A stretch of DNA of 51,223 nt from Methanothermobacter sp. (GTDB taxonomy: Archaea; Methanobacteriota; Methanobacteria; Methanobacteriales; Methanothermobacteraceae): NCBI RefSeq assembly GCF_030055435.1, contig NZ_JASFYG010000002.1, positions 1 through 51,223 on the forward strand. Direction: 5' to 3'. The notes under the pieces are model-generated. The model made no database searches, was not told the DNA's origin, and was given only the letters and a program-made list of their open reading frames with translations. Below are positions 20,204-22,699 of the stretch, piece after piece; position 1 is the stretch's first letter; each line of letters starts with the position of its first letter. Position numbers and translations under genes: made by a program.

Positions 20204-20301
20204 GTTTTCCCTTTTTGTTGCGATTCATTATATACCAGTGACATGTAATAATTTCATGATGTTATATATTCATGGATGGATATAATTAGTTGTGTGATAC
20301 C

Positions 20302-20769
20302 ATGCCAGAGAAGAAGATAAAGAAATGGCTTGAGGAGGAGGGTTTTCTGAGGATGGAAGTCCCTGACGAAAACGCCTCGTTCCATTATGTAATAAATTAT
20401 CCAGAGGATCATGTCATTGATATCATTCAGCCTGCTGGAAAGAATGACATGATCCTCATAGCCTGTGCAACCAGTGTTAGCCCCGAGCACCAGTCAGGAA
20501 TACGTGCACTCAGTATGGAGAAAAGGACCGAGTTCATATGGAAGGTTCGTTTTACCCTGAACATGTTTGGAGTTGATTTTCAGCTTGATCACCCAGAAAA
20601 TGTGCTGAACAGCTATCTTGTAACCTCTGAGATATTCTCTGATGGCCTCTCAAAGGACAGGTTGATTTCAAGTATAAAAAATGTTTTCAGGGCTAAACTT
20701 CATGTCATGTGGATGATACAGGAACGCTTTGGCGAGGATAAGCCTGAACACGACAGCATGTATGTGTGA
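20302..20769 (+). CDS. DUF2299 family protein beside the origin
   Basis: A 155-residue soluble protein resembling the archaeal DUF2299 family (KIKKWLEEEGFLRMEVPDEN, YVINYPEDHVIDIIQP, FQLDHPENVLNSYLV). The family fold is suggested to be chaperone-like; the function is unknown. The ATG at 20302 has GTGATACC immediately before it; a GTG at 20290 would add four residues. It is the last gene before the origin array, and the most degenerate origin repeat starts 7 bases after its stop. Confidence 0.72.
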   Translation: MPEKKIKKWLEEEGFLRMEVPDENASFHYVINYPEDHVIDIIQPAGKNDMILIACATSVSPEHQSGIRALSMEKRTEFIWKVRFTLNMFGVDFQLDHPENVLNSYLVTSEIFSDGLSKDRLISSIKNVFRAKLHVMWMIQERFGEDKPEHDSMYV

Positions 20770-20775
20770 GGTTCA

Positions 20776-21051
20776 TTTCCATTGTAACATCTAGGAGGTT
20801 CCTCTTAACACTTTGAGAGATAGATTTCAACTGTAAATCTGTTTTTTGTATCATGACTCTGGGTTTGTGGGACATCTATTTCAAGTGTAAATTAATTCCA
20901 GTACATTTATTTGCATGAGTGAGAGGTGCATTTCAACTGTAATTTACACTTGATATTGATGGACACGTGGGAGAGAGATACATTTCAAGTGAAAATTTTA
21001 TTACGATATTAAATTTTAAAATTAAAAGGTGACATTAACTTCAAGTGTAAA
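20776..21051 (-). repeat. Left half-array of origin repeats
   Basis: Copies in TTTCAAGTGTAAA orientation start at 20776 (TTTCCATTGTAAC, weakest), 20825 (one mismatch), 20879 (perfect), 20931 (two mismatches), 20983 (one mismatch) and 21039 (one mismatch). Start-to-start distances are 49, 54, 52, 52 and 56 bases. Most copies are preceded by a purine-rich segment such as GAGAGATAG, GGGACATCTA, GAGAGGTGC or GAGAGAGATAC, the complement of the pyrimidine-rich tail seen on the right side. A plus-oriented copy, TTTACACTTGATA, sits at 20943-20955 and shares one base with the 20931 copy. Confidence 0.9.
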
Positions 21052-21140
21052 ATTGGACGTTCCTTCCAGATACGCCCAAAAAATTCTCTTCTTTTATATC
21101 AGAATGCATATTCTCAACATAGCAGTAATCAAATCCTGCA
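21052..21140. other. Central spacer of the origin, candidate unwinding region
   Basis: These 89 bases lie between the two half-arrays that face each other. They contain an AT-rich part (AAAAAATTCTCTTCTTTTATAT near 21079-21100, here split: AAAAAATTCTC and TTCTTTTATAT). A second very AT-rich stretch, ATTAAATTTTAAAATTAAAA, lies at about 21008-21027 inside the left array. Either could be the duplex unwinding element; the choice cannot be made by reading. Confidence 0.5.
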
Positions 21141-21399
21141 TTTACACTTGAAATGGATGTCTCCCTCACAACACCCCAGCAGTTTAGGAACCGTTACACT
21201 TGAAATGGATGTCTCCCTCTGTGAGAAGGGAGGAAAAATAATCTGTTACACTTGAAACTTATGTCCCCCATTCACATTCAGGCAAGGTGCAAGGGAAATT
21301 TACACTTGAAATGGATGTCTCACGCCATTATTATGAAAAGGATTGATATTAATAAAAACTTTTATCTAAGAGTTAGAATAAGAAAATTTACACTTGAAA
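21141..21399 (+). repeat. Right half-array of origin repeats
   Basis: Plus-oriented copies start at 21141 (perfect), 21193 and 21245 (one mismatch each, G for first T), 21299 (perfect) and 21387 (perfect). Spacing is 52, 52, 54 and 88 bases. The 13-base core is followed in three copies by TGGATGTCTC and in two by CTTATGTCCCCC or CTTATCACC. The full element is therefore about 25-27 bases with a pyrimidine-rich tail, like the extended origin recognition box of other archaea. Confidence 0.92.
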
Positions 21400-21550
21400 C
21401 TTATCACCATGTTTATCGGGTGATCTAAAGGGGCACTGCCAGTGTTAAAAGGGAACCTCAAAAACCTGAAGTAAATATCATTCCAGTTTTGAGGCCTTTA
21501 AAATAAATTGAAGTAGCAGTTTTCTCTAAAACTTTATTTGAAGTGGTACT

Positions 21551-22699
21551 ATGAACATTTTTGATGAGATAGGGGACAAAGAATCTGTTTTTAAGGATAA
21601 AAAATATCTTGACCACAGGTTTCTGCCTGACAGGCTGCCTCACAGAGAGGAACAGATACGTTCAATAGCCAAGTACTGGGTTGAAGCACTGAATGGAGTC
21701 ACACCACCGGACATAACAATATATGGAAAAACAGGGACAGGGAAAACTGCAGTCGCTAAATTTGCCATGAAACAGCTTAAAGAGGCTTCAAGGGACTGTG
21801 ATGTTAACATAAGGACAGAATATATCCGTTGCACCGATTACACAACAGAATACCAGGTCATAGCAAGGCTCTGCCAGCAGCTTGGTCGCGATGTCCCCTA
21901 CCGTGGCTGGACAAAGGCCGAGATAGTCAACACATTCAGGAACATGTTCAAGAAAAACGCCTTTGGCCAGGACATGATACTACTTGTTGTCCTTGACGAG
22001 ATAGACATACTCCTAAGGAACGATGGTGACGGTCTGCTCTACACTCTCACAAGGACAGATAACGTCTCCATACTATCCATAAGTAACTACGTTGAATTTA
22101 AAAAGTTCATAAAACCACGCGTGAGGAGCAGTCTGAGGGACAGGGAGATAGTCTTCCCACCCTACGGCGCCCAGCAGCTTGTTGATATACTCGAGGAAAG
22201 ATCCAAGCTGTCCTTCAAGGAGGGTGCACTTGATGACGATGTAATACCCCTCTGTGCAGCACTTGCAGCCAAGGAGGAGGGTGACGCAAGGTATGCCCTT
22301 GATCTTCTCAGGACAGCAGGTGAAATTGCAGATGAAAGAGATTCAGATGTGGTAAAGGGGGACTTTGTAAGGGAAGCCAAGGATTACATAGAACACAACA
22401 AAATCACAGACATAATACTGACACTACCCAGCCAGCAGCAGAGGGTCCTTGAGGCAATACTCTACCTCACAAAAAGAAAGGAGGAGATAACCTCAGGAAG
22501 GCTCTATGAGGTCTACAAGGAGATATCAAAGGGTGATTCAGTTTCGTACAGAAGAATATTTGACTTTATAAATGAACTTGAAATGCTTGGACTTATATCA
22601 ACCAACACAGTTTCAAGGGGAAGGGGAAAGGGACGCACAAACATTATAGATCTTCAATGTGAAACTTCCCTTCTGGAGGATTCACTCTGGGGAGTCTAA
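21551..22699 (+). CDS. cdc6: Orc1/Cdc6 replication initiator
   Basis: A 382-residue AAA+ initiator. Walker A is GKTGTGKT (59-66) and Walker B is [12 protein letters not shown] (D149, E150). A sensor segment [19 protein letters not shown] and [15 protein letters not shown] follow. The C-terminal 100 residues form a winged helix ([28 protein letters not shown]) that binds origin repeats. It both recognises the adjacent array and helps load MCM. A TATA-like TTTAAAATAA at 21497-21506 lies about 50 bases before the ATG, between the last repeat and the gene, so the initiator could affect its own transcription. Its last 18 bases overlap the convergent pyrB gene. Confidence 0.96.

Follow-up and report, generated by a model that had tools for sequence, protein, structure and literature searches.

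The window analysed here, the whole stretch, covers positions 1-51223 of contig 2 of a Methanothermobacter sp. genome of 1,669,713 bases in total. The listed origin sites are placed between a DUF2299 ORF (20290-20769) and the orc1/cdc6 initiator gene (21551-22699), and the layout along 20776-21399 runs from minus-strand ORB copies through an orientation flip to plus-strand copies. The features of the locus are as follows:

20666..20678, minus strand: outlying ORB-like copy within the DUF2299 ORF (Pfam match); one mismatch, PWM match
20776..20788, minus strand: weak outer ORB copy; three mismatches, passes the 25-nt PWM
20815..20837, minus strand: ORB of the left half-array; one mismatch in the 13-mer, extended motif matched
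20869..20891, minus strand: ORB of the left half-array; 13-mer exact, extended motif matched
20921..20943, minus strand: ORB of the left half-array; two mismatches in the 13-mer, extended motif matched
20943..20955, plus strand: overlapping divergent ORB copy; one mismatch, PWM match
20973..20995, minus strand: ORB of the left half-array; 13-mer and extended motif
20996..21027, no strand: AT-rich DNA separating the two left ORBs closest to the flip; spacer 14% GC, with the 30-mer of lowest stability near the array (20994-21024)
21029..21051, minus strand: innermost left ORB; 13-mer and extended motif
21093..21105, plus strand: probable decayed ORB in the 102-bp central interval, predicted from the eight-genome alignment; about 5 mismatches in 13
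21141..21163, plus strand: ORB of the right half-array; extended motif, no mismatches
21193..21215, plus strand: ORB of the right half-array; extended motif, no mismatches
21245..21267, plus strand: ORB of the right half-array; extended motif, one mismatch
21299..21321, plus strand: ORB of the right half-array; extended motif, no mismatches
21351..21368, plus strand: conserved box AATAAAAACTTTTATCTA found by sequence comparison, BRE/TATA-like; probable orc1 core promoter
21387..21399, plus strand: ORB core lacking the 3' extension, located where transcription is expected to start; probable orc1 operator
21551..22699, plus strand: orc1/cdc6 initiator gene (ORF), 382 aa; Pfam Cdc6_lid (3.6e-29), Cdc6_C (1.5e-22) and AAA

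The 13-mer TTTACACTTGAAA occurs 52 times in the window at ≤3 mismatches, compared to 15.1 ± 3.8 expected. The extended motif TTACACTTGAAANNNATGTCTC at ≤3 mismatches occurs nine times in the whole window (0.01 expected), with five sites on the minus strand and four on the plus strand, all within 20815-21321 and at no other place in the window. The outermost listed sites, 20776 and 21387, do not match the extended motif, and both pass the 25-nt PWM. An earlier note on this DNA had listed eleven 13-mers, all of which are present at the positions and distances it gave and on the strands these imply; its list was incomplete, however, as the plus-strand copy at 20943-20955 and the minus-strand copy at 20666-20678 (one mismatch each) were overlooked. 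The former shares one base with the minus copy at 20931, the starts being 12 bp apart, and the counterpart of the latter is PWM-positive in 6/7 other congeners, the seventh (G007) being unalignable there. The opposite orientation of the two half-arrays holds as described in that note, but not their 'pointing inward': with the repeat written as TTTACACTTGAAA, each half-array is directed outward, and the choice between the two words is a matter of labelling. GC skew over the window has no clear sign change at the array.

On sequence grounds, 20776-21399 is an ORB-type chromosomal replication origin just upstream of orc1/cdc6 in a Methanothermobacter-like archaeon, in line with the original assignment. 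The adjacent orc1/cdc6 gene, the several conserved ORBs and their opposite polarity are all traits of archaeal ORB origins. As to a further trait, an AT-rich unwinding region between opposed ORBs, AT-rich stretches are present, but they occur beside the flip and not at the flip. The origin is of a known kind, to which the present comparison adds a clade-fixed spacing, kept in relatives, and a conserved promoter-ORB module. The 13-mer is presumably the Cdc6/Orc1-binding repeat of the Methanothermobacter thermautotrophicus origin, and one genome of the comparative set (G005) is taken to be M. thermautotrophicus delta-H. The two origins share the ORB, its place beside orc1, the type of array and the proximal box, and differ in their intervals, which in G005 are 53, 53, 51, 50, 64 (across the centre), 49, 51, 71, 49 and 89 bp.

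Statements in two sources describe an origin of this type as experimentally demonstrated in M. thermautotrophicus (PMC4010727, PMC3984812), and Orc1 binding and firing in vivo are reported for this species in passages of reviews. One review describes M. thermautotrophicus Cdc6 as binding cooperatively (PMC5333045), and another, in its remarks on higher-order initiator assembly, describes no general need for it in archaea (PMC6742236). Sulfolobus oriC1 and Aeropyrum Ori1 are described as similarly having inverted ORBs, an orc1 initiator and opposite polarity around an opening region (PMC6742236, PMC8287685, PMC12141716). By contrast, these origins have three or four ORBs around one AT-rich DUE, whereas the Methanothermobacter array has long tandem half-arrays and a flip that is not its AT-richest part. 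Bacterial DnaA-box arrays are alike in their working, being described as having species- and position-specific spacing and an initiator site at the initiator's own promoter (PMC6742236, PMC8203912); the initiator and sites are unrelated, and the autoregulation of the methanogen is a prediction. Among the papers listed by a literature search, with subscription papers mostly outside its coverage, none was on how ORBs are spaced or phased in Methanobacteriales.

Orc1 relatives were found in 139/150 genomes of the order, and the upstream DNA was assembled for 132. Outside this set are G014, G015, G031 and G045 (upstream sequence missing or gene partial), G128 (sequence begins at the gene), G092 and G114. 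At least 10 of the 132 origins are shorter than 1000 nt and were kept in the denominators (G036, G131, G025, G033, G026, G038, G118, G023, G148 and G034). The PWM, derived from the same origins it scores, finds 851 sites of ≥11 bits in the 132 origins, whereas Markov shuffles predict 5.3. Clades with seed sites share the consensus TTACACTTGAAA, after which come a short gap and a part rich in pyrimidines; g9 is without seed sites. Genus labels are assigned by inference as Methanothermobacter (g1, eight congeners), Methanosphaera-like (g14), Methanobrevibacter-like (g11, g10 and g7) and other Methanobacteriaceae (g16-g19). As the genomes are related, the intervals are non-independent and the p values are indicative only. 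Reversal of orientation is widespread: in 108/132 related origins, a plus copy has to its left two minus copies spaced by 44-60 bp. In G023, G024 and G116 (genera g9 and g13), 0, 2 and 0 PWM matches are noted over 847-1400 bp of sequence; these lineages are AT-rich, and their array may have decayed or changed place. Abutting or overlapping minus and plus ORBs with starts 8-12 bp apart are noted in many Methanobrevibacter-like origins (49 neighbours in g11 and 8 in g10).

The flip is not the AT-rich centre that the earlier note proposed. The flip spacer has 36% GC, and the AT-rich spacers lie elsewhere, at 20996-21038 (14% GC) in the left half-array and at 21312-21386 (25% GC) ahead of the 21387 site. 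By calculation, stability is lowest at 20994-21024 and 21346-21376 for 30-mers, and at 21341-21391 and 20978-21028 for 50-mers. Melting at the flip, as was also proposed, is not supported in the genus, where 0/8 origins have their lowest stability at the flip; when the two least stable 40-mers are taken per congener, the left place recurs in 7/8 and the right place in 8/8. The flip is the least stable 40-mer in 14/15 scored origins of g14, 31/59 of g11 and 3/4 of g16-g19, and, as in Methanothermobacter, never in g10 (0/11), g7 (0/4) or g15 (0/4). Across the flip, the diverging ORBs are 57, 63, 64, 64, 67, 102, 116 and 118 bp apart in the eight congeners. In 6/7 other congeners, a PWM-positive plus ORB lies 49-50 bp left of the counterpart of the 21141 plus ORB, and the 102-bp flip interval of the window probably hides a decayed ORB near 21093 (54 + 48).

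The site nearest to orc1 was considered as an ordinary array member and rejected in that role, since its extension is missing and a conserved box lies upstream. The spacer 21365-21385 is the best conserved between congeners (0.81-1.00 identity, length unchanged), and all eight Methanothermobacter genomes carry an exact copy of the 19-mer AATAAAAACTTTTATCTAA at the origin, with one other match at one mismatch among the eight. A relaxed box followed by an ORB core at 32-36 bp is present in 81/132 origins, compared to 0.2 expected in shuffles, and six alternative spacing windows give only 0-9 origins; the consensus for the box derives from the very origins it was searched in, at 31-38 bp only. 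With this relaxed consensus, the module is not found in g14 (0/17), g10 (0/15), g7 (0/4) or the single origins of g3, g16 and g19, and is also missed in 3/5 g9, 3/5 g15, 5/60 g11 and 1/4 g2 origins. An archaeal TATA box is described as lying about 28 nt before the transcription start (PMC8553660); at this distance the orc1 start would fall inside the ORB, and thus autorepression by Orc1 is the preferred reading. The box and the 21387 ORB together suggest an orc1 promoter with an ORB at its start site, at which the gene may be autoregulated.

Alternatively, though rather improbably, 21351-21386 acts as the unwinding element or as the binding site, comparable to ucm of Sulfolobus, of a protein specific to the origin, and not as an orc1 promoter. 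In eight genomes the module is 398-967 bp upstream of orc1, an odd position for an orc1 promoter, and its geometry is kept; of seven of these genomes examined, six have no ATG-started ORF of at least 40 aa in the gap between module and gene and one has a 40-aa ORF. Such distant modules leave some room for an origin role comparable to that of ucm, as do the placement of the box in one of the two least stable 40-mers of 8/8 congeners, its exact occurrence once per genome in the genus, and the description of a comparable motif in the DUE as essential in Sulfolobus (PMC12141716). By contrast, the box resembles a BRE/TATA element, and its distance to the ORB fits the spacing from TATA box to start. 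Among the non-origin matches listed for four Methanobrevibacter-like genomes (≤1 mismatch; G047, G050, G053 and G054), 15/20 end in TTTATATA. Of the non-origin box loci, 19/24 have an ORF start (ATG, GTG or TTG) ≤420 bp downstream, and 5/24 lie within an open frame of >120 codons, both counts being without control. At ≤2 mismatches, genome-wide enrichment of the box over a reversed control is not clear.

The array itself appears to be governed by distance. In Methanothermobacter, 66/84 same-strand intervals of ≤135 bp in the eight congeners are 49-56 bp, and in g14, 61/75 such intervals are 50-56 bp. The regular intervals of the 52-bp clades span 48-60 bp, with a mean of 52.1 bp and an sd of 1.83 (133 intervals in 34 runs, selected as 44-60 bp). 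In g11, by contrast, 122/238 same-strand intervals of ≤135 bp are 47-49 bp. The left pair of g11 is 47 bp in 52/59 origins and the right pair 48 bp in 42/59, all within 47-49 bp (sd of 0.39 and 0.53 bp, respectively), where the pairs were selected as 44-52 bp apart and 59 of 60 origins have them, while the detected centre ranges from 16 to 118 across the 59. By a rough estimate, the modal-length shares of the two pairs are about what the modal share of the centre (22/59) gives when scaled by length; the constraint is visible in the small size of the changes. The conserved quantity is a clade-specific site-to-site distance, ~52 bp here and 47-48 bp in the Methanobrevibacter-like clades. Random, non-helical spacing of the same repeats in related origins had been named in the earlier note as what would count against helical phasing; largely in agreement with this, the g11 spacing of 47-49 bp (4.5 turns) is non-helical, but it is not random, and a distance rule survives.

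Within the genus, length is retained where sequence is lost. In the comparison with G007, the congener furthest removed, identity is down to 34-54% in four of the five array spacers, while their lengths change by only -3, 0, +2 and -2; thus, length is conserved apart from sequence, with exceptions. The fifth spacer (21206-21244) has length changes of -1, +6, +18, +19 and +50 over seven genomes, so that the length rule does not hold everywhere. The flip spacer varies by +1 to +11 in 89 bp within the genus, a contrast with the array spacers that is modest in proportion. The even spacing could also be a relic of tandem duplication of a ~52 bp unit, without present function. The additional ~50 bp ORB unit that G007 carries in its right half-array is consistent with such a relic, as is the slightly greater likeness of adjacent spacers relative to shuffled ones (0.455 vs 0.419, sd 0.047, in the genus; 0.557 vs 0.524 in g14; 0.458 vs 0.436 in g11); yet the strong decay of spacer sequence alongside length held within 3 bp at four of five places, and the two different lengths each held within their own clades, make this origin of the spacing improbable. 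The difference between 52 and 47 bp has no decisive match in Orc1 among 33 aligned proteins (17 vs 16). The substitutions fixed by clade are V68A, R198K, L238M, S332T and L348I, besides which the first residue is outside the matched stretch, and indels occur only near both ends.

A distance rule is distinct from a helical rule, which the earlier note had drawn from intervals said to be nearly all ~52 or 2 × 52 bp, with initiators on one DNA face. The ten intervals of the array have deviations from whole turns (10.5 bp) of -0.33, +0.14, -0.05, -0.05, +0.33, -0.29, -0.05, -0.05, +0.14 and +0.38, with a Rayleigh R of 0.31 (p 0.39). Phase was examined at periods of 10.0-11.0 and 5.25 bp for the full set of intervals, for intervals weighted by clade and for distinct clade-distance pairs, and absolute ORB faces were compared with shuffled intervals. 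Across the 132 origins, helical phasing is weak or absent. The 527 intervals of ≤135 bp give R 0.18, which appears significant if related genomes count as independent, and weighting the clades equally gives 0.22; the 121 distinct clade-distance pairs give R 0.09 (p about 0.34). For the 332 intervals of 45-58 bp, R is 0.27 at 10.5 bp, nominally above chance if independent, and for same-strand intervals of 20-135 bp outside 45-58 bp it is 0.09 (n = 194). The within-run ORB faces of the 52-bp clades have a mean R of 0.660 vs 0.640 ± 0.026 shuffled, a value reached by 23.5% of shuffles, and in this shuffle test successive intervals show no compensation that would hold phase. Face alignment within runs is best at 10.5 among the six periods tried, as follows from the mean spacing of 52. 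Two phase classes (whole plus half turns) were also considered and rejected: at 5.25 bp, R is 0.37 for all intervals and 0.42 at 45-58 bp, falling to 0.07 and 0.19 when only distinct pairs are counted.

Thus, clustering at whole turns is absent in the array and phase is not kept in relatives; with R 0.31, no compensation and clades at 4.5 turns, a common one-face rule is unsupported. The model of the earlier note, in which sites on one helix face follow at five turns per step and an Orc1 filament from each side melts the centre, can draw on the mean of the 52-bp clades near five turns and the best face clustering at 10.5, on the R of the 45-58 bp intervals and on the single-bp tightness in Methanobrevibacter, which could reflect a rotational rule, but is very improbable against the p of 0.39, the non-compensating neighbours, the 47-48 bp clades half a turn off, the R of 0.09 both outside 45-58 bp and on distinct pairs, and a flip that varies from 57 to 118 bp in the genus and is not the least stable stretch.

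The preferred reading of the locus, held at a probability of about 0.62, is that of two outward-reading ORB half-arrays beside orc1 with a clade-fixed distance rule and a separate promoter-ORB module. Orc1 would bind the array in this strain, and the spacing most likely sets the closeness with which neighbouring Orc1 proteins pack (cooperative loading). Packing by distance, through contacts between the proteins, would need no single helical face for all Orc1. Opening of the duplex probably begins in AT-rich DNA beside an ORB, away from the geometric centre. The 21387 ORB would form a separate module at the expected start of a BRE/TATA-like promoter, and Orc1 bound there probably represses its own gene.

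A wider proposal for the Methanobacteriales, advanced tentatively, is that of an inter-ORB ruler with settings of 52 and 47-48 bp, about half a turn apart, for the same ORB core and no obvious matching change in Orc1. If this is true, the contacts between initiators must absorb a turn of ~160 degrees, such that the geometry of neighbouring initiators would tolerate or compensate it, and the promoter-ORB module would tie orc1 transcription to origin occupancy. The proposal bears on whether archaeal initiators act as ordered assemblies or independent loaders, as framed in a review (PMC6742236). The helical-phasing idea, now tested with a mostly negative result, gives way to a checkable rule, in which each clade keeps its own spacing and the two values differ by half a turn. 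The promoter-ORB module is a concrete place to examine initiator autoregulation in methanogens, and a shuttle vector and reporter are described for the methanogens in question (PMC8609365).

Two further observations concern orc1 and its surroundings. An inverted repeat, CCTCAAAA / TTTTGAGG, at 21456-21494 between the last ORB and orc1 is a possible leader hairpin; by eye, it is absent from G002, G005 and G006 and present in G000, G001, G003 and G004. A second Orc1/Cdc6 relative of 28% identity is encoded in the same genome (L002, G000:C2:208475-209527).
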